A DNA stretch of 64,000 nt from Gloeopeniophorella convolvens (taxonomy: Eukaryota > Basidiomycota > Agaricomycetes > Russulales). The stretch spans positions 186,001 to 250,000 of the forward strand of contig WTXD01000004.1 of the NCBI GenBank assembly GCA_022496205.1, written 5' to 3'. Shown piece after piece: positions 19,972 to 46,015 of the stretch. Numbering within the stretch: the first letter of the stretch is position 1; each line of letters starts with the position of its first letter. The translations under genes and the position numbers were made by a program. Below the pieces are notes generated by a model. That model was not told the origin of the DNA. It made no database searches and saw only the letters and a program-made list of their open reading frames with translations.

Positions 19972-20404
19972 TCGAGTTTAAACCTTGGTTTACAAAAGTA
20001 CAATAGGCGCGCGTAGTCCGAGGTTGCGATGGTGTCGCGCATCCTTTCGCAGGAATCGAGCAGCTGCTCGCAATCCTAAGCCTCGTTAGTATACGAGCAG
20101 TACGCCCTCAGGGATAGGTCAGCTGACCGCTCGCTCCGCTTAGGGACTATTGGCGCGGGTCGCAGCTCGCCCGCGGCTGTGTTGGCCGTCGAGGGGTGTT
20201 CGCATGCGTGGGACCCCTGTGCCCCTGGCAGGGGAGGGGATAAAGGGCGTCCAGCTGGTCCCCTGAATCCCAGCTTTTCTCTCTCCCTGCCAGGTACGTC
20301 TCTTGTCGACGCAGCTGTGTCGATCGCTTTCTTACTTTTCTCTCTCCCTGCCAGGGTCGCACGCATTTTCGCGTTACTCATATATTTCATACATCTGTCG
20401 ACTC

Positions 20405-21790: not shown

Positions 21791-23614
21791 GCCGCCGCGC
21801 CTCTTTCGGGGTTTCTTGTGGGGAGATTCCCCGGAAGATCCGCTGACCCCATCTGCCTCATTCACGGAAGTCTGCGACGCGCTCCCGTCTCCTCCTCCTC
21901 AGATAGTCAACGACCCAGTAGCTCGTGCGACAATCCGCGCCAGACCAGACCTCTTCCGCATCATCACCCCTATCAACGTCGACCGCTTTGAGCTCCTCCT
22001 GCGCGACCATCCCAACCGTCCATTCGTCGACTCTGTGCTGCGCGGTTTTCGTGAGGGCTTTTGGCCCTATGCTGACTGGGAGCCATCACAGCACCAGCAG
22101 CCACGCGATTTCCCAGAGCGACCTTTGTCGCCTGACGCGCTCAAGTTCGTTCGCAAGCAGGTGCGGGAGGAGGAGCGCCTTAGGCGGTTCTCGGAGCCAT
22201 TCGCTCACGCTGATGAGCCTCTGTGGCCTGGGATGTGCAGCGTCCCAGTGCACACGGTTCCTAAACCCGAGTCTAATAAGCGCAGACTCGTGGTAGACCA
22301 TTCGGCCGGCGAGTTCTCGCCCAACTCCTGCATCGACCGTGACAGCATCTACATGAAGCTCACACCGTTCAGCACCTCGGCACCAATCTCCTTCGCGCTC
22401 GCGAAGAGCACGGTCCCGACGCGCCTCTTTGGCTATTCAAGTCTGACGTCTCCCAGGCCTACCGACGCCTTCCTATGCACCCTCTCTGGCAGCTGCGCCA
22501 AGTTGTCACCGTTGATGGCGAGCGCCGCGTCGACCGCTGCGATAACTTCGGCAACCGCGCTGCAGGCACCCTGTTCTGCGCGTTTAAGGCGCTGGTGCTC
22601 TGGATTGCCATCAACGTCTTACTGCTAGAAGCGCTACTTGCTTATGTTGACGATACTCACTGCTATGAGGTCGCGACGCAGCTCATGTACTATGCGCCTT
22701 ACGACGCTTGGTTCCCCATCAAGCAGGCAAAGCTGCTACTGCTGTGGGACTTCATCGGGCTTCCTCACGAGCGGCCTAAGCAGCTTTTTGGCCGATCACT
22801 GGTCATCACTGGCTTCCTCGTTGACTCCGACACCATGACTATCACGCTGGAGCGCCACCGGATCGACAAGCTGGTCGACATGGTCCGTGACTTTACGCTG
22901 AACGCCCCTGGGCGCAAGCGTCCCCTGGTCGAATGGTGGCGCAAGCTTGGCTGGATGAACTGGGCGCTCAGCGTGGCCCCGTATCTTCGACCGGCCCTTT
23001 CGTCTAGCTACCGCAAGATTGCCGGTCTTAAGATCCGCTTCGCGCCAGTCTACCTCAATAAGACCGTGATCCGCGACCTTCTCTGGTTTGCCGATACCTT
23101 CGAGCAGTTTCACGGCGTGCACATGGTGCGCGCATCGAACTGGGCACCTGCCCAGGCCGACCTTGTCCTGTTTTGCGACGCTAGCCTGGTTGGGCTTGGG
23201 TTTTGGTGCCCCCAGCGCAACGAGGGTTACGCCGCCCAGCTCCTGGAGCCACCAGCAACCGCCAACACCATCTTTTGGTTTGAAGCTCTTTGCGTGCTCT
23301 CTGCGCTCGTCTGGGCTTGTGCCCTGCCTGCACCGCCTAGGCGGCTCGCGATCTACACCGACAACCTCGATACCGTGCAGATCTTTGGCTCACTTCGCGC
23401 GCAGCCACCTTACAACGACCTCCTCCTCCGTGCAGCGCGAATTGTCATGCATCACAATATCGATCTGCGAGTCTTTCACATCCCTGGTGAAGAGAACGTT
23501 GTCGCGGACGCGCTTTCCCGCGGCCTCACAGCGGTGCTCGCGCAGCGCACCCCCACTCTAATCTTGAACTCTTTCATACCCCCTCGAGGCACGCTGGGGG
23601 AGGATGACTTATGA
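21759..23614 (+). pseudogene. Reverse transcriptase-RNase H of the retroelement, one frame break
   Basis: The polymerase of the element. An N-terminal region typical of DIRS-type enzymes (FVDSVLRGFREGFWPYAD) precedes RT motifs KSDVSQAYRRLPMHP and the catalytic YVDD box (AYVDDTHCY). RNase H carries its acidic residues in FCDASLVGLGFW, FWFEALCVLSA, YTDNLDTVQ and VADALSR. The frame changes at about 22350-22360, just before the KSDVSQAY motif, and one missing base would restore continuity. Whether this is true decay or a sequencing deletion is open, because similar single-base gaps affect host genes in this window. The stop overlaps the recombinase start as ATGA. Confidence 0.85.
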
Positions 23615-24672
23615 GCTTTCAGATCTCCGCGACGTCCAAGCAGCCGGAACGCCCGGCCTGGACGTTGCAGCGGCTTGTTTACGAGCGCGCCCTCGCACTT
23701 GGAGCCGCAATCGAGTCTACCACGGCCGCTGCGTATGGTTCGCACCTCCAATCGTATCTCACTTTCTGCAAAATGCACGTTTTCCCTGTTGACCCCACCG
23801 CCGACACCCTTTCTTTCTACGTCACATACATGTCACATTACATCAAGCCGTCGTCTGTCGTCTCCTACCTCTCTGGCATCTGCAACCAGCTAGAGGCGCA
23901 TTACCCCAACGTGCGCGAGCAGCGTGCCACGCCCTTGGTCAAACGCACGGTGGCAGGGTGCCTCAAGCGTTTTCAGGTGCCGCCTAACCACAAGGACCCT
24001 CTCTTCGTTAACGACATCCTCCTCGCGATCCACCGTTTTCCAAACCCGTCACATGATGATTTGCTTTTCATTGCGATCCTCGTCTGTGGCTTCTTTGGGC
24101 TGCATCGCCTTGGCGAGCTTACCTTCGCGGACAGCACGAAGCATCGTGACTGGCGCAAGGTTATCCGCCGCGTATCGGTAAAGTTCGGCCATGGCTACTT
24201 CTCTTACGAGCTGCCCACGCACAAGGCGGACCGCTTCTTCGAGGGCAACCGTGTGGTCGTCACCGACTACAACGTCCCTTTCAGACCTCTCTGCGTCTTT
24301 CGGTTGTACCTGCGCTCGCGCGATGCCATGGCACCCTTGCACCCCGCGCTTTGGATTCGGCAGAACCACGCCGTGCCTACGCGGTCCTGGTTTTTAGGCC
24401 GACTGCGGCAAATCCTGCCACGCTCATTTGCCGGCCACACGCCAAACGTGGCCGGCCACTCGCTCCGCTCTGGTGGTGCGACTTACTTTGCGATGCTTGG
24501 CTGGTCGGACGATCGCATCCGTATCATGGGGCGGTGGTCTTCTGAAAGCTTTCAGATTTACATCCGGAAGAACCCTGCTCTGCTCGCTACCCTCCTTGCA
24601 CCACCTCGCGCGCTCCCTTCCAATCCCTCACACCACCAGCCTCCACTCCACCACCCTATATTACGCCATTGA
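23611..24672 (+). CDS. Tyrosine recombinase of the retroelement
   Basis: A 353-residue integrase that joins the circular DNA intermediate to the genome. The catalytic set is visible: Arg in GLHRLGEL, the H-x-x-R box in AGHSLRSGGATYF, and the nucleophile Tyr in SFQIYIRK. A SAM-like N-terminal core-binding region (AAAYGSHLQSYLTFC) precedes it. The ATG overlaps the upstream stop codon by the 4-base ATGA, suggesting coupled reinitiation. The frame is open and looks functional. Such recombinases need short direct or inverted repeat ends, which I could not place. Confidence 0.9.
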   Translation: MSFQISATSKQPERPAWTLQRLVYERALALGAAIESTTAAAYGSHLQSYLTFCKMHVFPVDPTADTLSFYVTYMSHYIKPSSVVSYLSGICNQLEAHYPNVREQRATPLVKRTVAGCLKRFQVPPNHKDPLFVNDILLAIHRFPNPSHDDLLFIAILVCGFFGLHRLGELTFADSTKHRDWRKVIRRVSVKFGHGYFSYELPTHKADRFFEGNRVVVTDYNVPFRPLCVFRLYLRSRDAMAPLHPALWIRQNHAVPTRSWFLGRLRQILPRSFAGHTPNVAGHSLRSGGATYFAMLGWSDDRIRIMGRWSSESFQIYIRKNPALLATLLAPPRALPSNPSHHQPPLHHPILRH

Positions 24673-24713
24673 CTAGGTGCGGTCCGCGCGCACTCTCAGA
24701 ATGTGATCTGTTG

Positions 24714-24738
24714 GCGCCGGCCGGTGGAGGCCGGCGCT
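24714..24738. repeat. Perfect 9-bp hairpin after the recombinase gene
   Basis: GCGCCGGCC, a 7-base loop, then GGCCGGCGC, 41 bases past the recombinase stop. It is very GC-rich and should fold stably in RNA or single-stranded DNA. It could be a 3' end or replication signal of the retroelement, but no comparison copy is available. Confidence 0.7.
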
Positions 24739-24740
24739 GT

Positions 24741-25970
24741 TTCCGCTATTCGACTTCTCGCGCCGTGAAGGCACCGCCGATTGGACGGGATTAGTCTCCC
24801 CGAGTCAGACACCCGATTACGTCAACCCTCGTACCTCGGGATCCTCCATCTGGCGTCTGCTTTTCTTCCTGGGTGCACTAACGGGAGGTCCTCCTCTTTA
24901 TGATTTTCGCACTCAGTCGTATAATTATTTGCCTTAACTATTCCTGCGTGCATCCTCCTCCCCAAATGTATGCGGCCACAATGCAACAGAGTCTCGAGTC
25001 CAGGGGTCTACCGTCTGCCCGATCGAAAGTTTGACACATCAAAACAATCTTGACACTCGCCGGCGATCCAGTGTGCACCAGCAAAGCTGCATCGCCATCG
25101 GCCTGGGCACACACGCAGTGCGCCCCCTGCTGCATAAGTACCTGCAGGCCCTTCGCCGCCCCGATAGCGACACCTTGAACATCGAGACGTATGTGCCCCA
25201 GTTGGCATTGAAGTTGCTGAGCGTGGTGCGAGCGCGTGTGACTTTCGAATAAATTTCTATTGGACTGCAAGAGTGGGGGAGATGCGAAGCCCCGGGTTGA
25301 AGGGACCCAGATAAAGCGATATGGCTCCGTGGTGTTGGCAACATTATGGTCGAGGCGTAACAACAGATTCCTCCGGGGTCGAAGTGGCCACGCACCGACG
25401 TTGGGAGAGGATGAAGCAGCGAGGGGGCGCGAAGTGCGAAGGCATATGCATGGTTATGGGCGAGTTAACGTTATTATTTTCGAGCACAAGTGTCGCGCGA
25501 GACTTCGGACTTCGAATGTCCCCCACTTATGCCGTCCCAATCAGGAAGGGGGGGGCACCTCTCGACAATACTACGCCGGATCAGGAAGTGGACAGGACCA
25601 GGAAGTGAACATTTTGGAAAGATCGACTCCGCACGCAGCAATGGCTGCATAGAATTCGTTTATATTTTATACAATGAATAAATAGATCCATTCTACATGC
25701 TTGCGAAGTTTGAAGCAGATTGAGCTGCCGGATGATGCTAGAGAAATCGGTACTTCTGGGACACTGATGTGGACAGCTGCCAATCCTCCAGGAACAGGGG
25801 AAGAAATAGCTTATATGCCATGAAACTTGGTGTCCACAACACACTTATACATATCTACTATACCCCCAAGTTTTGTATCATTCACATGGGTAGAACACCA
25901 TCTGCGAGGGCTTTCCCTCCGGAGGGGCTCTAAGCGTGACAGAGGAGATTAAAGCTCCGCCGTCGGAGCG
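24741..25970. other. Non-coding region between the two mobile elements
   Basis: About 1.2 kb between the retroelement and the KDZ transposon. A short plus-strand frame ending at 25252 (LKLLSVVRARVTFE at its end) has a coding look but cannot be assigned. A 6-bp-arm palindrome (GCTCCG-CCGT-CGGAGC, 25954-25969) lies directly against the left transposon end. Nothing else recognised. Confidence 0.45.
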
Positions 25971-26154
25971 CCACCTGATGGTCACCACATTCCCTGGTCA
26001 CGGCCAGATTGATCCGGGGCTTACCGGCCTGTCGGCGGTAAGGCGTCCCTTAGTTTTCCCCTCCCCAGCAATATCCTCCTTCACCCAGCTTATCCCGGCA
26101 CCGGTAAAATGCCTAAGTCCCGCTAAGTCGTGACCGGCACGTGTCCGGGCTCCT
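25971..26154 (+). repeat. Left terminal inverted repeat, outer segment
   Basis: The outermost 184 bases of the transposon. They are nearly identical to the reverse complement of 38120-38302, apart from a few substitutions and a short indel where the right end has an extra CAAGTCCCGGTAC-like stretch. Shared words include CGGCCAGATTGATCCGGGGC and TTAGTTTTCCCCTCCCCAGC. Confidence 0.9.
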
Positions 26155-27600
26155 CACGTGCCCTTCCCGCGCCTCCCGCGCCTCCGGCAAGCTCGGGGCG
26201 GCCCCCCGGCATCGCGTAAGGGTGCTTGCTCGCTGTGGGAGACAGCGAGCACGCTGTTTCGACTTTTCCCACGTATGTTTTGCATAAAACATACAACATA
26301 TATATACCGTTCGATTCGGATTTTTAATGCGAATGTGATTATGATACTCACGTGACGAAATGACGACATTTTGTGATGGAAAAGGGACGGGAACTACCGG
26401 GTGGGGCTCGGGCAGCTCGGGCAGCTCGGGTTTAACCGGTATATGACTGGTATGACTCCCGGCCCCCACGTGCCTTTCCCGCGCCACCGGCAAGTGCGGG
26501 GCGGCCCCCCGTCATCGTCCCGCACTCGTGCTCGCTGTCTCCCACAGCGAGCAACACTGTTCACCACTTTCCCACACTTTCTCTGCACAAAACATATGAC
26601 ATATACATACCGTTCAGTTCGTATTTCTTATGCGGTTATGATTATGATACTCACGTGACTAAATAACGACATTTTGTAATGGAAAAGGGATGGGAGCCAC
26701 CGGGGGGGCTCGGGCAGCTCGGGCAGCTCGGGTTTAACCGGTATATGACCGGTATGACTCCCGGCCCCACGTGCCTTTCCCGCGCCACCGGCAAGTGCGG
26801 GACGGCTCCCATCATCGTCCCGCACTCATGCTCGCTGTCTCCCACAGCGAGCAACACTGTTCAACACTTTCTCACGCTTTCCCTGCGTAAAATATATGAC
26901 ATATATATACCATTTGAACTGTATTTGCAATGCGAATACAACTATAATACTGAAATGACCGAATAATGAGATTGTGAGTCAATAGGAAAGATGGGCAGTT
27001 CGAGTGGTCCGGGAATTTCCGTAATATTCTCACGCACCTTCCACGCGTCTCCCGCTCTCAGCACCGCCGGGCCGGCTACCCTGCAGGGCAGAATGGTGCA
27101 TACTCACTCATGAGTACAATGTTAGCATAATTCATGCACACCCTCTGCATGAAATACATGACATATGTATATTATTCGACTCCTATTGTTGATGAATATA
27201 GTAATACACGTTTTGTGGTGTTTTATTGGGCTTCTCAGGCGGACAAGGGGTGGGGAGCCCGTTCGGGTAGCTCGGGCTTGTCCGGAAACCCTCAATCTTC
27301 TCACGCGGCTCTCACACGGCAGCTCAGCACCGCCGGAATGCGGGACGGTTCCCCGGTGTCGCAACAAGTACAGTATGCCTTATTCCCACATGAATTCCTG
27401 TTCAAACATACAACATATATATATGTTTTGACTCGTATTTTTGATACGGGTGTGATTACGTGGCTCATGTGATGGGATAGTAAAGCCTGTAGGTGGAAAA
27501 GGGGTAGCGGCCGAAATACGCACTCGGGCATCTCGGGCAATTGACCGGGTGACCTTGACGTGTCTTGACTCTTCCCGTATCACGTGCAAGTGTTGTGTTT
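26155..27600 (+). repeat. Left subterminal tandem array, five ~0.3-kb units plus the start of a sixth
   Basis: Unit starts, marked by CACGTGCC or CACGCxxC, fall at 26155, 26467, 26768, 27031, 27302 and 27581, so periods are 312, 301, 263, 271 and 279. Each unit has the same plan: a C-rich block, a hairpin, an ACATA-rich AT block and a CTCGGGCAGCTCGGG-type block. Units 1-3 are closest to one another and units 4-5 have drifted, so the array is older toward the inside. Such repeats normally bind the transposase; that is inference here. Confidence 0.88.
26227..26251. repeat. Subterminal hairpin, 10-bp arms (left unit 1)
   Basis: TGCTCGCTGT, loop GGGAG, ACAGCGAGCA. The same arms recur at 26529-26553 and 26829-26853 with loop CTCCC (the inverse of unit 1) and at 38024-38048 with loop GGACG. 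A damaged copy lies at 37713-37737. Conserved arms with freely changing loops suggest selection on the paired structure or on a palindromic protein site. Confidence 0.85.
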
Positions 27601-27831
27601 TTTTATTTCTCTAAGTCGAGCCTCTGCATCCGCACCTACATCGCGGTCCCTCCACTACCCTGGGGTACCCAGTGACAGCAAACATTTGTAGTATTATGTG
27701 AGTACATGTGTAAACGAAGAGCTACGGAGCGGTGTGGTCCGAAGTGTGCGCATTGGGGCGTGCTACAACTCAGGCCGCAGAGGCGGTGCACTAGCACATG
27801 GCGCCGTGCCGACGCGTTCGACGTGCGTCAA

Positions 27832-29439
27832 CTAGGCAGCCTCGCCATCTTCGCCAGTGCCTTCGCTGTCTCCTTCACCAGCACCAGCCGAAGCGATGCC
27901 CTTCGCTTTCTTCGCACGGGGCTTGCGTGGCTTGTAGATCTTCTCACCATTTGCCTGGCGGCGGCGGTTCTCTGCTTTGCGGGCCTCAACCTCCTCGCCT
28001 GAAAGTGCCTCCCATCTGCAGGCTCCAGCAACCAGGGCATTATGGAGGACGAGGGTTTCGTCGCGCGTGAGGGTTCCGGGGTTGCGTACGGGGAGGGGAT
28101 CGGCCAGCCCACAAGGCAGACGCCTAGCTTCTCCACGATGCGCTGCTCGTAGTTATCGTAATTCATCTTGATGTCAGTTCGAACATGTTTGACCCTCTTG
28201 AGCACGGCCTCTGCGCGCAAGATGTTTGATACAGGTACAAAGAGCAGGAGGGGTGCGAGCTTACCAAGGCCCTTCTGAATGCTCTCGCGGCATGCCGCGA
28301 CGGTGGTGCGCTGGTTTGTCCTTGCCCGGTTTCCTGTAGGCGTGGCGTGGCGTAAGTCAAGGTTGACGCGGTTTCCAGGCGCAGCGCAGCACACCTTTCT
28401 GTGCCTTCTCGACCCTCGCAGCGCAGCCTGTGACGGCGAATGCCTCGAGCTCCATTGCAGCTTGCGCTGGCACCTTGGTCGAGTGGTCGGCGTGTTCAAA
28501 CCACTTCTCGCGGCGGGTGTGAGGTATGATCCGAACTCGTACGAGTGGCCAATGCTTCCGCGGCCCCACAGCAAGACCACCTCCGTTTTGAAGTCCCTCT
28601 GGAGGCTGCCGCACTGCGGTGTGGTCATGCTCAATCAGCTGCCCCTAGCAAAAGAGCCAGCAAACGTACTATGGCCAGTACGCGTTTGATTCGCGCGTCG
28701 ACGGCCTTGCTGATGGCGCGGTTCGAGAGCGAAGCTATGCGCTGCTCAGACTTCGCCGTCTCCGCCTTGGCCGCTTCATGACTGGCCAGTAGGGCAGCCT
28801 TCTCCTCGCCAGTAAGCTGGTCGAAACGCCCTTTGAGCCCATCGCTTTGCGCCTTGAGCAGCTCAGGGAGGGTTGTTTTGAATCCGCACATTTTCCCTGA
28901 CAACGTTAGTGGTGAGATCACATGTCAGGTGCATAGAAAAAAGCCCACCGGGCTACCACTACGGGGGCGGCAGGCGGAAAAGGCACACCGCCGACTGCGC
29001 GTCAAGACGCAGTAGGTATGGGCAAACGCTACTCAACGGCGTAGCAGAGCGCCGAAAGGCGACTATCCCACCCGCGCGCAGCCAGTGCACCCGCTAGGGC
29101 GTGCAGCACGAAGTACCCGGACGCAAGCTTACCTTCATTTATTTTTTCAAGCTCCTTACTGCAAAAGGCCCCCCACGCCGTGGCGTGGCCTTTGTTGACG
29201 TTCTTGAAGGCCCCGAGGCCGGCCGCCGTTCGAATGAACTCGTCAGAACTGCCCCAAACCTGAGCGCGCGAATACGAGAAGAACGATGTAGCGCACCGAC
29301 CGTGTTTCTTCGCAGCCTCCCCGAGGGAGCCCGTGAAGATGTCAACAGCGTCTTGCACGTCGGCAAGGCATTCTTCGCGGGCTTGTTTGGTCCTGCCAGC
29401 AGCAGTGGAGGGAGTCTGTGACGCTTGACTTGTTGCCAT
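27832..29439 (-). pseudogene. Transposon passenger gene of unknown function, two frame breaks
   Basis: Reading from ATG 29439, exons fit at 29439-29133, 28896-28670, 28613-28395, 28333-28265 and 28210-27832, about 400 codons. The C-terminal third (KMNYDNYEQRIVEKLGV, LVGWP, RNPGTLTRDETLVLHNAL, a basic KPRKPRAKKAK tail) resembles a hypothetical-protein family I recall from agaricomycete repeats. A WGRGSIGHSYEF segment and an NQRTTVAACRESIQKGL helix are also typical. No enzyme motif is seen. Two points, about 28510-28530 and 28090-28099, each need one extra base to keep frame; every splice phase otherwise agrees. It is either a recently broken gene or an intact one with consensus errors. The first intron (236 nt) is unusually long. 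Confidence 0.55.
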
Positions 29440-29634
29440 GGCTCTAGAGGACTGGGCTGAAGAGGGGATTCACAGATGGTTGAAAAGTTTGAGGATTACT
29501 GACTTTCAATTTTCTTACCCTTGTCTCAGATTAACCCATTGGTGGCCACAGCCGCTTGAGCATTAGATGTTGATCCCCACGTGATCGCGTTGAAATCAAA
29601 TCCATGTTGTACACTAAGCCCGATCATGCAAATG

Positions 29635-30129
29635 CTAACTATTAGGGGCGGGGATGCGTACTTCCAGCTCCATCCTCTCGCGGTTAGAGAGCCCACCGCC
29701 GCCCTGCAGCCGTAAGGCGGCAGTGCGCGTGTTTGTGAGAGAGAGGGAAGTAGTGGCGAGGCCCTCTGGAGGGCGGGTTAGCAGTGGAGGGTGTAGCAGC
29801 GGTGACAGCGCACCTGACCCGGAGCCAGTGAGGCGGCGCATACCCTTGTCAGCGAGGAGCTTCTCCCCTTCGAGGCGTGAGTCCATGGGAGCCTGGGCAA
29901 CGTCAGCGCAGGTGCGGAGAGGAGGTGGTGGCTGCGCGCCTTCTGCCCACTGCCGTAGAGACGCCGACTCGGACGGGAGGGCGGCGAAGCTCCCGTGGCA
30001 AAGGGACCACGGCCCCGTATCACGCAGCGCCTCGAAATATCCCGCAAGCCTGTTGCAAGCGCCGACCCAGCTTGAATGCCCAAGGATATCGTGATGACGC
30101 GCTCGTCTTAGTCGAGGACGACGACTCAC
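29635..30129 (-). CDS. Possible passenger ORF, hypothetical
   Basis: An uninterrupted 164-codon minus-strand frame. Its first half (ILGHSSWVGACNRLAGYFEA) has a mixed, protein-like composition and its second half is rich in Leu, Thr and Pro. No family recognised and no splice partner upstream. An equally long plus-strand frame overlaps it, so coding status is uncertain. Confidence 0.28.
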   Translation of the reverse strand: MSRRPRLRRARHHDILGHSSWVGACNRLAGYFEALRDTGPWSLCHGSFAALPSESASLRQWAEGAQPPPPLRTCADVAQAPMDSRLEGEKLLADKGMRRLTGSGSGALSPLLHPPLLTRPPEGLATTSLSLTNTRTAALRLQGGGGLSNRERMELEVRIPAPNS

Positions 30130-30890
30130 GAGCGTAATTCTGTGGTGGCGTAGTTAGAGCGCCTTGCGGGGTGAGGAGGAACGGTGCACCTTCTGTCTCA
30201 CGTCGCCTCAGAGAAGCCGGCTGCGTCGAGCTCTGTCGGTATCGGTGCTCACGGCGTCTTCCTCCGCAACGAGCTAACGCGCCGACTTCGCCCCGTGCGC
30301 CGCGCCGTACCAGACGCTGCGATCCTCCAATCACACTGCGATGGGCCTTCTCGTATGGCACAGAATCGTTGATCTTGCCTCTTCGCGTCGCGTCGCGCCT
30401 TCTCTGGCGCCCAGTGCTCTCGGCCCCTGCCCCTCGGTTGCGGCTACAGCCCTACGCGTGGTTACGAGGGCTTTCCCCACCCTCGTCGCCGCCGCAAGGC
30501 GCCAAGCCCTACCATCCCGCGCCATCGACGCTGGAGAAAACGGAAGCCCCGGAAGCTATCGTTTTCATGTCGCGGGGCGCTGCTTTCAAGCTCGAGTTGG
30601 TGGAGCAAATCCGAGTGGTGGATTCCAGGGCCGAGGGGGTCTGAACAGCAAACGTCGGTGTTCAGCGGCTGCACGCCGCTATCGGCGTCAATACCTGGGG
30701 CAGCATACACTATATCAATCAGATGTATGACAGGCGACAAAGAGAGTGAAAGAAAGGGAGGGGTGGTGGGCGTTCAATGTCTTTTGCATAACGCTGCGTC
30801 GCGCAGTAACCTTGGCGGGGCGCCGCAGCGCCGCCAGCGTTAGCACAAAAATCGTGTCCAGCGATGATTTGCGAGAGGAGGTGTGGGTGT

Positions 30891-30920
30891 GGTTTGAGCG
30901 AAGGTTTGAGCGAAGGTTTG
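30891..30920. repeat. Exact 12-bp tandem repeat, 2.5 copies
   Basis: GGTTTGAGCGAA twice, followed by GGTTTG. It lies in the transposon interior, with a possible minus-strand GTAAGC splice donor immediately beside it. Confidence 0.8.
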
Positions 30921-32500
30921 CTTACCGGTCATGTCGTCATACATCGAGCAAGCATCCAAGTAGCAGGTAAGTAGGCCCGGCGTCGTCGAGGCTCGGCTGT
31001 GATCAACCGTCGAGTCATGTGATTCATCGCGCGTCGGGCGCGTCGATGCTCGGAGGCAATTCGGAGGTAAGCACACCCCTCGAACATAACGCATATGTGT
31101 TCATCGCCACGTCTTTCTTGTTCCAAGCCGCTTCAATTGAATATCTAACGGTCGCCTCCGATCTACTAGCAGGTTTTGTGTCAATGCTGATGGCCTGAGA
31201 AATGTAGCATAACCTGGCACTTGTGCAGACTTTACAGCCGAGAGGTCTCGAGAGCTCAGACCTTGAGCTGCACACCATTCTGGGGTCTCTCTGTGGTCAC
31301 AATCACTTTGTGCAAACACACCTCACGTCATATCTTGTGGCTTCAATCTTGCCTCCCCCAGGATCTGACCTTTGTTGTTGTATCATGTCGCGCTCCGCCG
31401 GCGCGCCCCGCTTTATCCCCTGCTTGTCCGACACCGTCCCACTGCCATTCCATTCCGCGACACCACTTCCGGCCCTCATAACGCCTTAAGAATTAGCGTG
31501 AAGACTCCTTCAAGGTTAACCGAAATTCTATGTTACACGCGTGTAATAATTTCGTCTCCTATGCTTACCGAATCATTGTACCGACTCCTCACTTTGCAAA
31601 AAGAACTTCTACGGCCATTTGACTCTTAATGTACCAATTTACAGAACCCTTATAGTCTGCGCGGCTTGTGGCATCATCCGTTATTCTCGAAATGTCATGC
31701 GCGTGCCTCAATTCCCTCCCTCTCGCCTCTTGTGTTCGCACTCTCGCTCCCGCTCCACTGAGCACTCTCCGGACTCGTCTCGCGCTGCCTGGACTCGGAA
31801 ATGGCTGGGCTCACCGATCTAGACAATTCAACTTTCTCGCCATTTCTTTTGCATAATATATCAGTGGCTACTGTCAGAATCTGTTCTGATACTCGACCGT
31901 GACTGGAGCAAATACCAAAGCTACATGACATCAAGCGATCAGCATCCAGGACAATTCGACGTCCAGGCTTCACTGAGAGTTTCTGCTGCAAGCGAATGTA
32001 CTCATATGCATGCTTCGATTACTGTCGCACACCACCGATCACGAGTCGATCAGGGCTGCGAGCGGAAATACTGACTTCGATCATGTTTGAGAAATCCCCG
32101 GACCAATAGGACACCCAGGATAAGCACACGAAATCACATAGTCATGCGCATGCCTTGAATGGTTTGGTGTTGAGTTGTCGCCGCAGTGTTATCCCGGTCT
32201 GGGACGTGCTCGTAAATCCTTAGTGCGAAGAAACAGCGCGCAGTCTCGATTTCCCAGCACTGTAGCCCTCTGTACTATGAGTGGATCGTCTTGACTACTA
32301 CACCTCGAATAACGTAGAAAGAAGCAGCGTCGCCCGCTCGCGAAACGCGCCTTGATGTTTGGGTAAACGCGAGTGCCCCAGAGTCGTGACTCCACTCAAC
32401 CACGCTTCACAGCGTGGCTCAAGGAATTTTTTCGTACATCGCCAATCGTGGGGCCGCCCACGCTCTTATTGAAGCAGGTACAAAGTGTAAATAATAGCGA

Positions 32501-33507
32501 TCATTCGTTCTGGACAGCGAGACTCTTTTCGTAGCGGTCGTGCCACAGGCTCAACACGCCCTCGTAGGTCTCGCAGTACGACCTTGAATTCCTCCCGAGC
32601 GGTGCAGGGCCGGTGGTCACCCTGCGTACGTGTAAGACAGAAACGAGTTGCTCAGGCGCGAGGCGTACCGCATGTGATATATCCCATCGGTGTTTCCCTG
32701 CACAGGCTCGACGTACCAGCGGCCTTTCTTGGGCCACGGGATGCGCGGACGCCAACTTCGAGGCGCACCGGGAGGCGGAGTCCATGGGGTAGGTGTAGAC
32801 CATGCGCCTGGCTTTTGAAACCTGGGACGCCGTTTGTATGGCAGTTTAGCAGGGGGCGCTGGCGGCATTGGTGCAGGCGTAGAGGGCGGCGACGGGTCTT
32901 CGGCGTGGACAACTGCCGGGCGGTTGTACGGCAGTGCGCGCATCGAAATTTGAGGCTGGGGAGCATCAGCCACACCGGGCGTGCTCGAGACAACCTCTCG
33001 ATCGATTGGCGTGTGCTGCAACTTCGAGTGGCGCGGTTGCCCTTCGTCTAGCCCACGAAGGCTGAGCGATGCGAGCGACGCGAGGATTGGATCGGCAGAG
33101 AGCCTGCCAAGCCATAGTGACCTGGCCTTCTCCCTGAGTGCGTCGCGCTTTGGAGGTGGTCAGGGTTGGCAGAGGCTGATTGACAGTGGGAAGGAATGTT
33201 CACCGCTGCTCCAGAGTCCGCCCCGCAGGGGGTAACATGCCCATCAATCAGGGCGCGGCGAAACAAGCTTATTGCCTCCGCGGACGAGGAGCACCGGTAC
33301 ACAACTGTGTCTTGCAGGTTCACAGTTGACAAAATTGCGTCGAGCCTGCGATAAAGACCATCAGACGGCGCTCGCTTCAGGCTTGAAGTGAGAGACATGC
33401 CTTGTGAAAACGCCGGGCTCAAAGCCCCGCAAGACAACGAAAACCCGAGACACCAAGTCGTCGGGGACGAGGTATGTGGGTTCGGTGACGTTGACTTGCG
33501 TGGGCAT
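32501..33507 (-). CDS. Transposon passenger gene with a viroplasmin/RNase H1 N-terminal-like segment
   Basis: From the ATG at 33507, the first exon gives PTYLVPDDLVSRVFVVLRGF followed by EPGVF. After a discontinuity comes VVYRCSSSAEAISLFRRAL. These match the start and end of the small viroplasmin/RNase H1 N-terminal domain, which binds RNA-DNA hybrids or double-stranded RNA. A proline-rich middle (about 33017-32640) and a last exon ending LSLWHDRYEKSLAVQNE follow, with an intron at about 32632-32585. The frame between the two domain halves, near 33400, is not resolved: no intron fits well, and a one-base surplus or two-base deficit would be needed. It is divergent from the transposase. Its role in transposition is unknown. 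Confidence 0.5.
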
Positions 33508-33766
33508 GGTGGTGCTGAGCGTGCGGCGATGCCTCCTTGATGTCCCTCGATAATATTGCAACAGCCTGGCCCGGGCGCCGGCGCGTCGGATGGTGAGTTC
33601 GCGAGGTCCATCACGTGCTGAACATGTCTCACATGATCGAGATTGTTTACTGTGATCTTCGCCCGGCCGCAGTACTGCGAACGAACTCACAATCCTTGGC
33701 GCTTCAAGCTTCAAGCTTCAAGCCCCAGCCTCACGGCGCGTTTCTCAGCCCCTGCCCTAGTCCAAC
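33508..33766. promoter_or_regulatory. Divergent promoter region of the transposon
   Basis: 259 bases between the viroplasmin-like gene start and the transposase start. It contains three perfect CTTCAAG heptamers in a row (33702-33722), 45 bases upstream of the transposase ATG. Regulatory function is inferred. Confidence 0.45.
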
Positions 33767-36700
33767 ATGAACCGAGGAAAGAGAATTACTTCTTCCTCAG
33801 GTAAGGCTTACTCGAACAAACGAAATGGCGGCGCTTGGAATTCAGCTCCCGTGGCAAAACGCATCAAGGCAAGCGAAGCACACAAGCAGCACCTTGAGGC
33901 AGAAGAAAGGGCAAAGAGGGAGAAAGAACGTACGTCATTCACTTCGGGACTGCATCTGCATCGCCGACTTATGTCCTCTTAGGTGTCACTGCCGCGTTTC
34001 GTCAAAAACTTGTCGAAATTGGTATGGCTGCGAACGTCGAGCTCGAGGACGTCGACTGGGCGCTTGTGCCTGAGCCGGACCAATTTCTTGACCCCGCAGA
34101 CCCACTCGACGAGTGGGAGGACGTTGAAGAGGAGCTGACCTGCAGCTCTGTCGACGAGACCTTGAAGGAGAAGGCTTTGCGGGACGCGCGCTTGCGGGCA
34201 ATTATCTCGTGAGCTCGACTGTCTTCATCTGCGCGCCTGCTGCTCCCTCATCTCTACCGCAGAGCGTTCGGTGGACGGCGCAGAATGTTCACAGATAACA
34301 GAACGCGCTTGCACCGGCGTCGAGCTGCCACGCGCGAGTGGAAGGCCGTCGTTCCAACTCTCGTTGAGCCATTCCTTGAATGGTCTCACTCTCACGCTAC
34401 GACCCGCCAGGAGCTTGAAGGAGACGTGATCCGTGAATTACGAGTTCTGGGCCTTACAGGTGCGTTCTAACCTTTTTCCTTCGTTTGGCTCGCCCTCAAT
34501 CCCTTCAGCCATTGCTCCTCAGTCGCAGGTGATCCGGCAGCGTCGCGACGAGAACGTCAACGTTGCATTGATGCATGCGGGCCTGGTTCCTGGGACGCCA
34601 GTTACCCCCTCCCTCGCTTTCTCTGTCGACCTCCTTGCCTTCTACTACCACCTCCGGCGGCGTCAGCCTAGCGTTGGCGTACAAGGCTTTGTCAAATCCG
34701 CGTGCGCTGTTCAAAGCGTACGTACTCACTCTTTGGCTTCCACGCGCCTGCCTGACCTGTTTTTAGTTTCCATACGTCCACACCCTGGAGGCGCTCTTCT
34801 CGAACGCCTTCGACGTTTACTGTGACGTTCGCCGCCGCGTCCAACGAAGAGTTGATGTTGCCCTGAAGCGAGATGCTTCGAATTGGAGGATGAAGTATGG
34901 GTGCCCTGCGTGTGGATACAAGGTACGCCTTCTATAGAACAGACGAGCCCGCGCTTATGCGAGAAAAAAGCTCGCAGGTGAGACCAGGCTCGTTCCCGAC
35001 CGCATGCACGCCGTAGATGGCTGCGACTCACAAAAACGAGACAAGGCTGCTGGCACTTGCGACGAACGAGCGTTCGAGAGCCGCTTGTTCTTGAGCCGTG
35101 ATTTTGTCAACCGCTTCCATGGCGAGGTCAGATCACATGCCGCAGCAAGACAATCTTCGCAAGCCTCTCAGGCCCGCGTCCGCGCAGTGGAGGCCGAAGA
35201 CGGGTTCGCGCTCCCAGAAGACCAAGAGGACGACCGTTGTGGCAGCAACTGGAAAGCTGCCAACACTAAAGAGTTGCCGCCTGCATCGAAAGAGGCGTTC
35301 GAGCAGACCGGCGTTTTCGCCTGCCTCTGCAGACACGGGATCGTCGAATTCTTGATCGAGTTCGTGCAGTGTGGCGAACGGTGAGCCCCCGTTTGCACCG
35401 CGGCACGGTTCTGATGCATTGAAGGGTGATCTAGGGCGAAGCACGCGCTAGCCGCCGTTTCTACAATTCTAGAGGAGTTTGGAGAAGACCAAGCCCTGGG
35501 GTACGACATCAACTGCGTCCTCGAGACCACGGTACGCAACAGCTCGCTTGGTAACAAGGCCAGTGAGCTGCGTCTACAGCACGTTGTTGACGCGTTTCAC
35601 TGCTGGGCGCACAAACGAGCTTGCCAACTCAAGTACCACCCGCTTTACCGCCCAGGCTTCGGCCTTGAGGACCTCTCCACTTGCGAGAGGTTCTTTTCCA
35701 GTCTCAACGGCACTGCCCGCAACATCCGGCATGCATCAAACTACAGGTGGCATCAAGCCATCGATCTCCATGTCGACCAGCTCAACGACGACCGGTACGC
35801 GTCCCTTGGTGTGTATCCCACCCTCTGAAACTCGAAGCCGGCTGATCTGGATGCACAGGCTGGTTCATCCTACAGAACTACAAGCAAGCCTACGACCTCC
35901 AACGCACCCTCACCCGCGAGCTCACCACTTACTACCAGAGCACTAAGTACAGCCCGAGCGACTTCATCGAGTGGCAAAAAGAAGAAGCCGCGTTCCTCGC
36001 GTCTGCAAAACGCAAGGAACCCATGCAAGTAAGCTTGGAGGTAGCGTATGTGGAGGCCCTGGAGAAAGAGCGCGCCTTAAAGTGCGCCCCTTTCGAAATT
36101 GAACCACCTGCCGCGCTAACCGCTAGAACAGCACGCAGTACGAACGGTTACGAGAGGACATCGCAGCCTTGGACCCATTCGTGACGGTGACTGCAGAGCA
36201 ATATGGGAGCCTTAGTGCAGACAGCGTTCAGGAAAGCAAACGGGAGGCGCTCGACCGCGAGCGACGTTTGCTAATGGGGCGCCTGGACCGTGCAAGCAAG
36301 GCGGTTGAGGATGCTGAGCGTTTGCTAGGCGTTCCCGAGCCATGGAAGTACGGCGACGCAAAATACACCAAGACCCTCGAGTATATCAACAACCGTCAGT
36401 TTGTTCGAACCGTCGAGGAGTTGCAGGGGCTTGTGGTGAGCCGCTTGATGGAACTCGACAGGGCTAACTTGGCAGGGTCAGGTGCGTAGCTGTCTTCTTG
36501 CAGCGCCCCCTGTTAACTCACAGAAACACAAACAGGCTATAAGCTCCGCAAGCACATCGCACAGGCACTGTCCAGGCGCTGCACAGCGCTGCGCAATGCC
36601 ATCGACCGGTACAACACCCTTGCACCCCAGCAGCGACCCCCCCGCCCCTTGCTGCACTACTCCGAGGTTCTCGAATACTGCAGCCTCTCGGAGTTCGAGA

Positions 36701-37269
36701 TCCTCAAGCACACAGACGACGACATGTTGCGCAAGCCGTGGGCCTTGCGGTCAAACCGCGAGGCAGCAAACAGGTACTTCAAACTCGAACGCGCGAAGGA
36801 AGAGCTTGTGAGGTGCGGCATCGAAGCACACCGCCTCCATGCATGGGTTGACGCGGACGACGAGGCTATGGTGGCCGCAGTTGAGAACTACGAGGCACTG
36901 TCCCCCGCCTTCACTTCTCATCTCAAGGTCATCCAGGCCACCCGCCAGCGAGTGAACGATTCGCTTCGTAAACGACTCGCCCAGTTGTACGCGATCCGCG
37001 GTGAAGTATTCGACCCACGAACAGTAGCAACAGGAGGTGGCGTTGGTGCCAACAGCCCCCCAGGTGCCTCCAGCCCTCCTGCCGACCCTTGGGATGACGC
37101 GCAGCTTCACCTCAAAGGTGGGCTGGGTGGAAGTTCTGGTGCGGCCTCTCTCCCACCTGCGGATAGTACCAATGATGGCTCGGACGATGAAGACGAGCTC
37201 TACGACGAAGAGCAGGGAGACGAAGTCCTGCGCATTACTGACACGTTGGCAAGGATTGCAGTGATGTAG
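33767..37269 (+). CDS. KDZ transposase
   Basis: The DDE/RNase H-fold enzyme that should cut and paste the element, 1,013 residues over ten exons: 33767-33929, 33983-34208, 34263-34459, 34509-34717, 34767-34922, 34971-35380, 35435-35808, 35859-36081, 36132-36481 and 36536-37269. All phases agree and no stop interrupts. Recognised family blocks are TPSLAFSVDLLAFYYHL, CPACGYK, HAVDGCDSQKRD, FACLCRHGIVEFL, GYDINCVLE, FHCWAHKRACQLKYHP, GLEDLSTCERFFSSLNG and GYKLRKHIAQALSRR. Likely catalytic acids are D333, D478 and E532 or E538. The N-terminus is basic (nuclear). I see only one CxxC pair rather than a full cysteine cluster. The tail is acidic. The open frame suggests a recently active gene. Confidence 0.92.
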
Positions 37270-37530
37270 CATGCATACACTTTGCGCGGTCTTATTTTTG
37301 TACACTGGTGCATGTATCTATTTATCAGTAATATCATTATGATGGAGTGGACAAATGCCACGCAGAAGGGGGTGTATACAAGAAGAATCCGACTTAGCCA
37401 TTGAAGTGCACGATACCATGCGACATCACGTGACACGTGACGTGTTGACGACTTCTGTTCCGGAGCTCGGCTTTACCATACACACGGAGATTCCCATAGC
37501 CGTGCGGCTGGCTCACCACTTACAGACTCA
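37270..37530. other. 3' flank of the transposase
   Basis: 261 bases of AT-richer sequence between the transposase stop and the right-end repeats. It holds a direct CACGTGACACGTGACGTG run (37425-37442) reminiscent of the CACGTG cores of the arrays. Confidence 0.5.
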
Positions 37531-38119
37531 CAATCATGTCACGTGAGCGTCACAGTTATATCCGCATTGAGAATACAATTCGAATGGTATATATATGTTA
37601 CAATTATGTCACGTGAGCATCACAGTTGTATCCGCATTAAGAATACAATTCGAATGGTATATATATGTTATATGTTTTATGCAGAGATAGTGTGGGAAAT
37701 GAGGAAAGAGTCTGCTCGCCATGGGAGACAGCGAGCACGACACACGGGACAACGTGAAGGCACGGAAGGCGCGGGAGAGGCACGTGGTGCCCGGGACCGG
37801 TACCACCGGTCACCGGTCACCGGTCATCAATCATCGGTCACTGCCGGGCCAAGCCCGAGGTGCCCGAGCCCCCTCATTGGCTCCCCATCCCTTTGACGAC
37901 TATAACTCTTACAACCGCGTCACGTGAGCACTACGGCTGTATCCGCATTAAGAATACGATTCGAACGGTATATATATGTTGTATGTTTTATGCGGAACAT
38001 ACGTGGGAAAAACAGAAACAGCGTGCTCGCTGTGGACGACAGCGAGCACGAGGGTTTGCTCAACGTCGGGAGCCGTCCCGGTCTTACCGGAGGCACGGGA
38101 GGCGTGGGACAGGCACGTG
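37531..38119 (-). repeat. Right subterminal array, inverted relative to the left
   Basis: Two full units in reverse orientation, with hairpins at 37713-37737 and 38024-38048 and the GGTATATATATGTT core. An exact-length 70-bp tandem duplication lies innermost (37531-37600 and 37601-37670, differing at about four positions). The right array is less than half the length of the left one (five units). Confidence 0.87.
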
Positions 38120-38302
38120 ATGGGGCGGGAGTCATACCGGTGGGACTTGGGCATTTTACCGGTACCGGGACTTGCCGGGATAAGCTGGGTGAAGGCAGAT
38201 ATTGCTGGGGAGGGGAAAACTAAGGTACGCCTTACCGCCGACAGGCCGGCAAGCCCCGGATCAATCTGGCCGTGACCAATGAATGTGGTGACCATCAGGT
38301 GG
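38120..38302 (-). repeat. Right terminal inverted repeat, outer segment
   Basis: Reverse-complement partner of 25971-26154, ending in CCATCAGGTGG. It marks the right boundary of the transposon. Confidence 0.9.
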
Positions 38303-38667
38303 GGTCTCGCCGGAATTACAAGATCTGGTATGCCCTTATCTGGGATTTTGTAGATTAGATCCCCGGATAATGTACCTAACGGGTCAGCTCACGAATTATA
38401 ATATGTCAGTCCGATTGCAAAGCGAGATCTCACTCCGTGCATGCATTGGCAATCCACATGGAACATGCTGCAACCTTTGCAGGGGCCTATCGGATGTTAT
38501 GATTATCCCTTGCTTCTTGCAAGGGGTGCACATTCCTTTTCCTCCCTTTGCAATTGAGTCAGTGGTACGATGAGTTCCAATGAGACTGTACAATAATTAT
38601 GGGATTAGCAAGACCTCAAGAGGTTGCAGTATTAGTCGCTAGCGACGATAGTAAAAATATGTAAAAT

Positions 38668-38733
38668 CTGAGAGTCGAACGCGAGCCCTCAACACGAAGA
38701 CGACTAACGCTGGTATTACCAATACACCACAAA
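38668..38733 (-). other. tRNA-like relic or SINE head
   Basis: On the minus strand, GTGGTGTATTGGTAATACC resembles a tRNA D-arm with an A box. Some 30 bases on, GCGTTCGACTCTC resembles a T-arm B box. The anticodon and acceptor stems do not pair, so it is not a working tRNA. Confidence 0.3.
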
Positions 38734-39404
38734 ACACTCACAACTCAAAGGCACGCTCTGTAATATAACCCACACATCGACGCCGTGGAAGTCGGATTCG
38801 AAAAATTTGCGCAAGTCGTCGCCCACATCGTTATCTTCTCACCCCCATGTTCAACATCATACATCACGCATCACGGCGCTCGACTTCGCCCTCCTCCACT
38901 GCAGAGACGGCTCCTATCGTCAAATCCAAGGCACCACTCTGCGCATAGGCCTAAACAATGGAACGACAGCATGATGATTCGTGTTGCACGATTCCGCTGC
39001 CACCAATATTGTCGCCAGCCCGACTGCTTTCATGTGAGAACCTCGCAGGACGACGCGCGCACGCAACTCGCATCGCACCACCCCGTGTCACACCACAACA
39101 ACGCCATTGCGTCGGTGCAGCAGGTCCCGCTGTGTAGCGCGGCCGCGATGTGGTGCAGCAATATGCGTCCTGCAAGCCTTCGCCGCCGCCGCTTTTGCCG
39201 CACGGTTCCGCCGACAGAAACAGCGATCGTACACCCACCAGCATACCCGGACCCGGACCCGTCACGACGCTGACACTGCGAACCCCCTCTCGTGGCCTCG
39301 TGCCGAAGCAAGGCAACCCGACTGCGCCGCCGTCGCGAGCTCCTTCGCGCGGCGACATGGCCGCGACGTGGCGTGCTGACGCGCGCCTCCCCACTTCCTC
39401 GCCG

Positions 39405-39710
39405 TGCTCTGACGAGCGCGGCTCCGTCTTCCCGGGCGAGGACGGTACCACCGTCCTCGTGTTCGACTCGCCACCCCCACTGCCACGCGATCACGCGCGC
39501 GGCCCACGCCAATACCCCGCACGCCATCGCACACTGCGCCGAACCACTGCCATGCTCCAACGAGCGCGGCCCCACTTCCCTAACCGAGGACGCCACCCCC
39601 GGTCCCGCATCCGCCTCACCGCCCCCGCCGCTCCGCGACCATGCGCACGACGTCCCGCGTGCCTTTGAGCACTGGGCCGGACCCCCGCCATGCTCTGACG
39701 AGCGCGGCCA
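39405..39710. repeat. Drifted ~140-148-bp tandem repeat
   Basis: The word TGCTCTGACGAGCGCGGC or a close variant starts units at 39405, 39553 and 39691. Translated units share PCSDERG and RDHA-type words but fall in different frames, as in a decayed repeat-containing gene. Confidence 0.6.
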
Positions 39711-40309
39711 TGTCAGCACCGCGAACCCGAGCAGCGACGGCTCCCCAGCACACGCCGCCATCCAATTTCGTCACGAAGGCCATATGTCATTCATAGCGAC
39801 CTCTTCAAGGTGCCTGATGTCCTCGTTCCCGTCAGCGGTGGCCACTCTGAAGACCACGGTGCACCGTCCCTGTCGCGTGCACGCCCAGTCGCCCCGCTCA
39901 CGTTCACCCGTGGGCCGCCACAGATTGCCACCTCTCTCGCAGTCACGCACCTGCTCCCAATCAGATGCATCACACCATATACCCTGATTGGCTCAAGATC
40001 GAGCACGGTATCGACGCCATCGTACGTCCCCACTACCACGTATTCGAAATCAATTTGATATCTCAGCAGGATGACCTGTTCGTCATCCCCAGCGATGCGG
40101 TGCTTGTGTCGCAGATCCACGAGGTCAGCCATTATCTCCCCTACGTGCATATGGCCCCACTCTGATGCTAACAATGGGGCAGTGAAGAGCCTCGACACGG
40201 GCGTGGAGCTCCCGCCGTCCTTCCCAGTGCCTCTGGCGCTGTAGACCATCGAGATGGCGTATGCACACGGCATTGCATCTCGTGCAGGACAAACAGGATG
40301 CGTCAACGA

Positions 40310-40500
40310 ACCGCATCTGGTTTGATGGTGGTGGGGTTGTCAAGGCAAAGGACGACGGGCTCGGCGACAATTTCGATTGCTTACCCTGGCGCTGAGTTTG
40401 CGAGCAAGGTCCTCAAGGCGCTCATGGGCAAGAAGTGCCTCGTCTCGCCGAGCTATGTCCACCTTGACATGGGCGCACAGGGTGGCTCAAGGCCTAGACC
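40310..40500 (+). pseudogene. Malate dehydrogenase fragment
   Basis: GGGVVKAKDD in one frame continues, after a one-base shift at about 40359, as GSATISIAYPGAEFASKVL and then SPSYVHLD. This corresponds to the conserved C-terminal half of NAD-dependent malate dehydrogenases (EVVKAKDGAGSATLSMAYAG-type). No other part of the enzyme is found nearby, so this is a short, broken relic. Confidence 0.65.
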
Positions 40501-42008
40501 AGGGGTGGTGCGCCCGTCCCCGCTCCACACTCGCACTCGCCGCCATCGTACCCTTTCACGTGCGGCACATACAAATTTTCTGCGACAGCAGCTGCGCCCT
40601 GCTTCATCCGTATCTGCATTCGCGCTCACACATGTGACTCCCCACCCTGTAGAATGATGATCAGGAGGTCGCCCAATGTGCCCGTACTGCCTTTCGAGTG
40701 CTTCAAGTGCCAGGAGGACATGCAGCAGTACATCAATTTCATGTACCGCATCGCATTCTCCTTCGAGTTGTGGCTTGTCAACACCGTCAATCTCTCCGAC
40801 CGGCTGTACAAGCTGTTTGGCATCGTCGCGCACATTGACAGGTGCAGGTGCGTGCGTGTGTGTGTGCCCCTGCACAGCCCTCCCGCACAACCCCCAGCTG
40901 ACTTATGCCCCCCAGGTCCAACGACCTGCACCACGGGCACCCGCGTCCGCAACCACGATCGTCGTATCTGCGAGCCCCGTGGTGAGCCCCACGCACAACG
41001 CGCTGCCACCCCCACCGCTGCCCATGCACCTACTGTCACCCAACCCCGGGCCCACGAATGATCCCGCGCTGCCGCAGCCCCATCACCCCCCCCCCCCTCC
41101 TGCTCCCCTGCGCGCCCTCTTCCTCTACCGCACCTACATTCCCCACCGCCGCACCCACGCAAACAGCATATATGCCGCGCGCCCGGTCACATGCGCGCAG
41201 CACCATTGTAGCACATGGGTGGAGTCTGTGTACGATGGAGCTACCCGTAGTTACCAGTGGCATGTAGAGCCTTTTGTAGTGTCTGAAATTGGCAAGTGAA
41301 TACATGAACATATGGACATTGTACAATGTTTCTGCAAGCTTGACAATGTCAGGCCATGTTGGCAAGGGACATCTTGATTCATGTGGCCCACAAGAATTAT
41401 GTTGAAATATATGGGATTTCAAAAAGTAGTAAACTCATATCAACCCTTGTAGACCAACCGACTCCTTGCAGCCATTTTGGCCCTTTTGACCCTTATAAGG
41501 ACTCAAAAGTACAGATAAGGTTTTGCGGGTTTTCGTGATGTCAAGTCCGGCTTGTTCAGGGCTGAAGAGTGATTGGCACTGTTTGGATGCACCTTGTAGA
41601 TATCATCTAATCGCCTCTGATAGTAGACTATATTCTTGACATAATGGTTTCACAATTGGGCAGCTGGATGGCGAAGGCGAGCATTTGGTGACAGTTCGAT
41701 GTAGGGATAATCCTCTAGACACGGTCTGTATACCACCGCACCTGTTCTTGGGTAATGTTGAGGTTGTGGACAAAACATCGGGTGCTGCTTGTATTGATTC
41801 GATGTAAACTGCGGTATGGGTTCGAACTTCGAACGGAGCACAGGCATGCGGTTCCCGATCCGTCGAGCAAGGTGTAGATGCAGGCCTAATACCTATGCAG
41901 GCAGATGCCGAGTCGGAGTTCGAACTTTGTTCGCTCAAACTTTGATTCTCGCTCATATCCACACACACAACCAACTTTCAACTGTACTCGTCGGCGGCTT
42001 CACACGAA

Positions 42009-42389
42009 ATGGTACGTTCGCGCTGCACTGAGCCTGGATCGCTGTCATTGATTGTCTGCGTAGGATTCATCAAAAGCCCCTGTAAAACTCGCTCGCGTTA
42101 TCAAGGTTCCCACCCCATTGCTACTCAGACACTTCCTGACCGATCTAACACACGGCGTTTCGTTCGCAGGTGCTCGGGCGCACCGGTTCTCGTGGAGGTG
42201 TCACGCAGGTTCGCGTAGAGTTCTTGGACGATACTACGCGGACCATCATCAGGAACGTGAAGGGTCCTGTGCGGGAGCAGGATATCCTGGCCCTCCTGGA
42301 GAGTGAGCGTGAAGCACGGTACGCATTCTTTTGCCGATCCATTGGTGTACCCATCGCTCATGCATGTGCTATCTAGCCGCCTTCGTTAA
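42009..42389 (+). CDS. RPS28: 40S ribosomal protein S28 (eS28)
   Basis: A small-subunit protein near the mRNA exit region, 68 residues as expected (yeast 67). Exons are 42009-42011, 42064-42105, 42170-42318 and 42377-42389. The first coding exon is only the ATG, directly followed by a GTACGT donor. Diagnostic sequence is [49 protein letters not shown] and ESEREARRLR at the end. The last exon supplies just the four final codons and the stop. One donor is GTTCCC, a weak site. Product call is certain; the two tiny terminal exons rest on exact agreement with the universal protein ends. Confidence 0.95.
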
Positions 42390-42899
42390 AATCATCGCAC
42401 CTCTCGCTCCACATGCTGCTCCGTCTTTTGTTGTGTCTTAGCATACTGTATGGCAATGCATACATGACCACAGGAAGACTTCCGCAAAGTCTGCGTGTTC
42501 GGATACCGCCAGCGGGCTCTTCTCAACGTTGAACGTTGAAGTATCGCTCACTCACCCCGGCTCGTGCGTCATAGAGTGACCGCCGACCGGTGGCTTTGTT
42601 GGAAGTTGAAGCCGCAGCCTTTTGTCATATCCGAATATCTAGCTTTTGTGTGTAACATGGTACTGGGTCTGGCCTTGCCTATCTCCGCAGGCGCGTGGGC
42701 GATGGGACTGCCCTATAGTTGTGGCGTTGATAGAGATAGTCCCATCGTGTATTGTGTGTTGCTGTGTGGTGCTGGAACGTTGCATCTTGGTGACAGAGGG
42801 TGACAGGATCGATCCGGGCGATTACTTTTTCTATATAGTTGTCCGGTCCTGTCGGGAGATGGTCAGTGGATTCCTGTTCACCCCAGTACTCTCCTCGCC
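42390..42899. other. Intergenic region between RPS28 and the GT8 gene
   Basis: About 510 bases containing the RPS28 3' end and the promoter of the glycosyltransferase. No gene-like frame or repeat stands out. Confidence 0.5.
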
Positions 42900-44003: not shown

Positions 44004-44058
44004 ATTCGATCATACATTCGTGAATGCTCGGCTACGTACCCTGCCAACTTGAACGACT

Positions 44059-45517: not shown

Positions 45518-46015
45518 TTGTCCAAAGTGAATGAAGCGAGTTGGTTCTACTGCGTTGGGTGAGCCTGACGAGTAGCCGAAGGCTGCTGCTGCCAGTGCTG
45601 GGAGTAGGTGACAGTGGCGATCTGCGATTGTGGATGATGCGGGCCGAGTTTTCCAGTCAAAGTGCAAAGTGCCGGTTGGGCGTCGAAACCCCTCACACAC
45701 TCGTTCGACGATCAGCCACATTGTCTCTACATCTGTTTCGTAGGCTCCCTGGTATCGAACATCGATCTCATTATCTCGGCCAACAAGTCGCGTGTCTCAT
45801 GTCCCGCGGTCCCGGGTCACACTCGTACAAAGGGAGAGATCAGACCTTCGTAAGTCGAATACGTCATGCACTCGAACTGATGGAAGGTTACCTCCGCAGA
45901 GATGTGAGGAGAGCTCGTGTGAGAATTAGCACCTATGTAAGTGAGGGACATAAAAACCGTGACTCTATGGGGGCGAAACCAGATCGCCCATCCAGACCTG
46001 CGTTTTTCGGGACGC
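45518..46015. other. Intergenic region between KAE1 and LAT1
   Basis: About 500 bases holding the KAE1 promoter and the LAT1 3' end. An open frame runs through it on the plus strand but lacks protein-like content. Confidence 0.5.

Follow-up and report, generated by a model that had tools for sequence, protein, structure and literature searches.

We analysed a stretch of 64,000 nucleotides of Gloeopeniophorella convolvens contig WTXD01000004.1 (positions 186,001 to 250,000; contig C334 below), which we call the window, and found in it a complete transposable element of the KDZ group that carries a transposase gene and two further genes, B and C (Table 1). An initial annotation of the window had proposed a complete KDZ transposon with inverted ends, subterminal arrays and a transposase in continuous frame, and this was borne out. 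The catalytic domain was matched by the full Pfam profile PF18758 (E 3.9e-62, profile positions 2-217 of 217), where an element lacking the profile had been named as one way in which the proposal could fail. The ten exons form one open frame, and the two ends are long inverted repeats.

Table 1. Features of the KDZ element and its flanks in the window (window coordinates)
Feature	Position	Strand	Remarks
Host repeat A, left part	25569..25971	+	~700-bp repeat, inverted ends TACTACGCC...GGCGTAGTA
8-bp duplication half CGGAGCGC	25964..25971	+	partner at other end of C1 twin
Complete KDZ element	25972-38301		12,330 bp; window copy, contig C334
Left terminal inverted repeat	25972..26200	+	begins CACCTGATGG; same start in C1 and C312 copies; end-to-end alignment
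Left subterminal array	26196..26976	+	~300-bp units, one further unit near 27383
Gene B	27832..29439	-	conserved in C312
Gene C	32501..33507	-	several exons, partial model
KDZ transposase	33767..37269	+	10 exons, 9 introns; continuous frame
Transposase exons 1-5	33767-33929, 33983-34208, 34263-34459, 34509-34717, 34767-34922	+	
Transposase exons 6-10	34971-35380, 35435-35808, 35859-36081, 36132-36481, 36536(or 36524)-37269	+	
KDZ catalytic domain PF18758	34998..35786	+	spans two exons; Pfam profile
Right subterminal array	37530..38051	+	inverted relative to left array
Right terminal inverted repeat	38074..38301	-	ends CCATCAGGTG on + strand; end-to-end alignment
8-bp duplication half GGGTCTCG	38302..38309	+	partner at other end of C1 twin
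Host repeat B, right part	38302..41540	+	ends CATCAGCAAAACC...GTTTTCGTGATG

Over an alignment of 218 columns, with one gap of 10 and one of 11 bases, the terminal inverted repeats agreed at 195, and the score of 273 compares with a maximum of 43 among 300 random window pairs. The terminal 16-mer was found exactly at both element ends and at no other window site with up to three mismatches. At this tolerance 0.65 matches are expected by chance and 12 shuffles reached two matches, so that the 16-mer alone is little proof. The base just outside the terminal CACCTG differs among copies, being G in a twin copy on contig C1 and T left of a third element on contig C312. It therefore belongs to the target duplication, and the limits 25971..38302 given in the initial annotation, although they enclosed a real element, extended one base too far at either end. 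Besides the units listed in Table 1, the right subterminal array contained a 70-bp unit twice (37530-37669) and a 151-nt repeat spaced 311 bp. An Rfam scan of the window at gathering scores gave no match.

The transposase was predicted to have 1,013 aa, or 1,017 aa with the alternative acceptor of the last intron. Both acceptors are usable, and a database fragment (P0001) takes the nearer one. Exon frames were chosen by conservation with the distant C312 element and gave an open model; an initial splice choice produced stops and was dropped. The acidic residues of three motifs (AVDG, GYDINC and STCERFFSS) are those we take to be the catalytic DDE residues of KDZ transposases. Among eight paralogue loci (L001-L008) the first motif appeared as LDG or MDG in five, the alignment stopping short in L002, L003 and L005, while the second read GYDIGC and the glutamate of the third was kept in all eight. 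The cysteine-cluster domain CxC3 scored 23.5 bits and thus below its Pfam cut-off of 26.6.

KDZ exons are frequent in this genome, with at least 65 matches (this and the following genome copy counts are lower bounds). A protein search with the last transposase exon found 66 relatives at E ≤0.001 among 1,348 candidates, mostly unnamed proteins of roughly 46-64% identity; the named ones came from Mycena, Suillus and Blastosporella. P0001, a "hypothetical protein" of G. convolvens (BC834DRAFT_922139), spans just the final 284 transposase residues. The search that found it covered proteins of roughly 140-440 aa, and the upstream exons may have other entries.

A search of the genome with a 201-bp end query gave at least five matches, two each on C334 and C1 and one on C312, whose second end was located separately. 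The terminal 22-mer had at least 73 genome matches with up to three mismatches, as against two for a reversed control pattern. Eight matches remained at one mismatch or less, and six of these were the paired ends of three elements; widely unpaired ends, the second finding that would have spoken against the proposed element, were thus not what we saw. The other two (C1:11052 and C20:16035) sit in 129-bp-spaced arrays, apparently WD40 repeats. Similar arrays with the terminal word at three mismatches occur at C290:5064-6762 and C381:90835-92533, again apparently WD40 repeats, and act as decoys for end searches. The terminal word had also been suggested as a handle for non-autonomous relatives, but end-sequence searches of the genome found none.

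Over 12,330 bp the C1 twin (39438-51770) showed no substitution relative to the window copy, the differences being five 1-base indels. Three of the five indels lay within runs of at least four equal bases. Three were coding, with one in exon 4 of the transposase near 34604, where the C1 copy is shorter, and two in gene B near 28089 and 28509, where the window copy is shorter. These one-base differences may be residual sequencing errors or may be real, and both copies were used as assembled. The third element (C312:218647-240862; loci L038-L040 and L049) was about 67% identical and had both ends intact. Its KDZ exon is interrupted by about 8.8 kb of inserted DNA, which has 522-bp direct repeats (97.7% identity) and is apparently a long terminal repeat retrotransposon.

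The flanks of the three elements went beyond the initial annotation. The C312 element has a matching 8-bp duplication, CGAAGCCT, on both sides. The window copy by itself has no direct duplication, being flanked by CGGAGCGC on the left and GGGTCTCG on the right; around the C1 twin, in the same orientation, the same two words stand in the order GGGTCTCG and CGGAGCGC. The interrupted host repeats followed the same pattern, as the right part of repeat A (304 bp) and the first 44 bp of repeat B both adjoin the C1 twin. Target A uninterrupted, with a single CGGAGCGC, was present as the exact word in eight of nine fetched copies besides the window's, and the ninth was uninterrupted with a substitution. 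For target B, for which a looser word was used, ten copies were fetched; the word was at the expected site in six, elsewhere in the locus in one and absent from three. Four of the six sites read GGGTCTGG, and two of the six (C34 and C382) have identical flanks. The host repeats' own duplications were tried as an independent test of an exchange; that of repeat A would be just TA. Repeat A appears to be a family resembling miniature inverted-repeat elements, the left flank having at least 41 matches in the genome, with copies mostly 85-99% alike and apparently a TA target.

The best explanation in our view, to which we give a probability of about 0.88, is a complete KDZ transposon that likely moves into 8-bp targets by cut-and-paste driven by its transposase and whose flanks were likely exchanged with those of the C1 twin after two insertions. 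The exchange is suggested by the recurrence of the window copy's two 8-mers in swapped order around the twin. Most simply, each original insertion would have had a perfect 8-bp duplication whose halves are now distributed crosswise. The transposase would bind the subterminal arrays and the ends and cut as a DDE enzyme, and genes B and C might aid transposition or escape from silencing. Two separate insertions, each with its perfect duplication, would have come first and the crossing of the flanks later. The movement was likely recent, since the twins lack any substitution at two separate target sites. The initial annotation had argued for recent activity from the open frame; the twin supports this claim better than the frame does.

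Two points weigh against this explanation. Every assembled copy has at least one gene that is not open as read (the C1 transposase, gene B of the window copy and the interrupted KDZ exon of C312). The CxC1 domain scored 24.7 bits, below its Pfam cut-off of 26.9.

Genes B and C were not part of the initial annotation. The product of gene B has 400 aa in a model of the C1 copy and 402 aa in the database model P0067; the model P0068 of the window copy starts farther upstream, near 29886. Splice sites of P0068 and P0067 differ around the one-base differences between the copies (window 27832-29886). Genome matches of gene B, 13 at the exon level, were confined to the three elements. When residues 250-345 were compared with proteins, two of 31 candidates passed, both from G. 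convolvens, which in a limited search is no proof of an orphan gene. Gene B had no Pfam family above cut-off, and gene C had a weak stretch like the RNase H1 N-terminus (E 0.16) below the Pfam cut-off. Since this match is all it has, the function of gene C is a guess. Compared with the C312 element, dN/dS was 0.10 for the transposase (932 codons), 0.17 for gene B (384 codons, C1 reading) and 0.14 for gene C (99 codons in three pieces picked by hand from the window copy), all of them rough values, synonymous sites being almost saturated (pS 0.60-0.64). From these values genes B and C look to be under constraint between relatives.

As to how the flanks came to be exchanged, we lean slightly to a join made by the assembler over an ectopic crossover. 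Two normal insertions with matching duplications would then have had their neighbours swapped during assembly across the near-identical 12.3-kb copies, which we consider slightly more likely than not. Spanning a repeat of 12.3 kb is difficult, and the assembly is in 404 contigs. The twins differ by one-base indels alone, three of five in homopolymer-like runs, which resembles residual long-read error, the read type being a guess. On the other hand, C1 (2.11 Mb) and C334 (1.25 Mb) are long contigs, and the assembler could instead have ended a contig at the repeat.

A real reciprocal translocation, in which an ectopic crossover between KDZ copies on different chromosomes swapped the flanks in this strain, is a serious if less favoured possibility. 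Both 8-mers and both interrupted host repeats are fully reciprocal and lie on long contigs, and near-identical copies make good crossover substrates. Four of six non-self matches of C1:30001-36000 lay on C334 left of the element (the others on C20 and C1), which would suit an ancestral arrangement joining the left sides of C334 and C1. Against this, the matches listed for C1:20001-30000 included relatives on several further contigs but not a single one on C334 (26 of 111 candidates scored, the self match also unlisted), and the crossover must fit within the short time before any substitution arose. Neither C1 stretch separates a real exchange from an artefact. A crossover between the copies themselves and one made during assembly would leave identical sequence behind. 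An uncrossed allele of the flanks was not found in the assembly, where C1:55001-60000 occurs once and the flanks on C334 consist of repeats. The terminal 10 kb at either end of C1 and C334 held just 0-3 scattered TTAGGG words per strand when searched for telomere repeats. That two fresh KDZ insertions recombined and swapped chromosome arms, with four 8-bp marks still recording the earlier arm pairing, is a tentative proposal that we hold to be somewhat doubtful.

Aberrant transposition with one end taken from each of the copies, or separate insertions that left no duplication, could account for the window copy, which alone lacks a direct duplication, but a third target or new 8-mers would be expected; the same two 8-mers in swapped order would arise with a chance of about 1 in 4^16 at equal base frequencies, which makes this origin very improbable. 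Equally hard to credit is an old immobile relic with a frame open by accident, which would fit the one-base differences found in the coding sequence of both twins and the interruption of the third element but not the lack of substitutions between twins at two sites or the dN/dS of the transposase.

The mobile KDZ transposon with exchanged flanks that we favour can be compared with elements from other fungi. Cryptococcus neoformans is a yeast-forming basidiomycete. Its KDZ1 is mobile, about 11 kb long, with 241-bp ends and 8-bp duplications, while KDZ2 (about 9.2 kb, 139-bp ends) and KDZ3 (about 10 kb, 169-bp ends) are likewise mobile with duplications of 4-8 bp, and all three carry KDZ and CxC1 domains (PMC12810828). 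The likeness to our element is one of description; unlike it, KDZ1-3 were shown to jump (PMC12810828), and it has two extra conserved genes and a CxC1 score just below the cut-off.

A second paper describes Zisupton and one Dileera family with 8-bp duplications, Zisupton also with inverted ends, and TET-bearing Kyakuja and Dileera families of fungi including their termini (PMC12730594). The element here shares with these the KDZ transposase and the 8-bp duplication (intact around the C312 element, crosswise between the window and C1 copies), and its long inverted ends give it a Zisupton-like structure (PMC12730594). A TET/JBP gene is present in the fungal families treated there (PMC12730594); a search for TET/JBP dioxygenase cargo gave no match genome-wide here, and the same search was also silent in 14 of 14 control genomes. 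Among TET-bearing transposons of Russulales, the order to which G. convolvens belongs, Kyakuja is the sole lineage reported in that paper; in Laccaria, Kyakuja-1 and -2 show duplications of 7 bp and lack inverted ends (PMC12730594). Our element resembles Kyakuja in its KDZ transposase and CA..TG termini but, owing to its long inverted ends and 8-bp duplication, is not Kyakuja-like in structure (PMC12730594). In Marasmius oreades, also an Agaricomycete, inverted-end motifs were described for KDZ/Plavaka elements, and again the likeness is by description (PMC8290104).

Complete, mobile KDZ elements have therefore already been published, and ours is a further complete and likely mobile one. The statement in the initial annotation that such elements are usually found as fragments is out of date, given the mobile and complete KDZ1-3 (PMC12810828) and the Kyakuja and Dileera families described with their termini (PMC12730594). 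What is added is a defined KDZ family, likely to have moved recently, in an order of mushroom-forming fungi; its exact ends and the length of its duplication are given, and of its three conserved genes two lack a Pfam family above cut-off. Swapped duplications might further serve as an easily read footprint by which long-read fungal genomes could be tested for exchanges between copies of a transposon or for crossovers made in assembly. If the exchange were real, a young KDZ family would have produced a translocation in a fungus, and all of its footprints would still be visible.

Some observations concern the surroundings of the two copies. On C1, positions 20001-30000 (L046) contained long open frames resembling by eye NACHT-WD40 genes; this stretch had many relatives, mainly 67-84% identical to it, on contigs including C371, C378, C395, C257, C401 and C113. 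The first 9,000 nucleotides of the window had a GC content of 62-81% (500-bp steps), compared with about 53-62% (2-kb steps) from 8 kb onward, and long open frames in this part resemble, judging by eye, Hsp70-type and CDCA7-type zinc-finger proteins.

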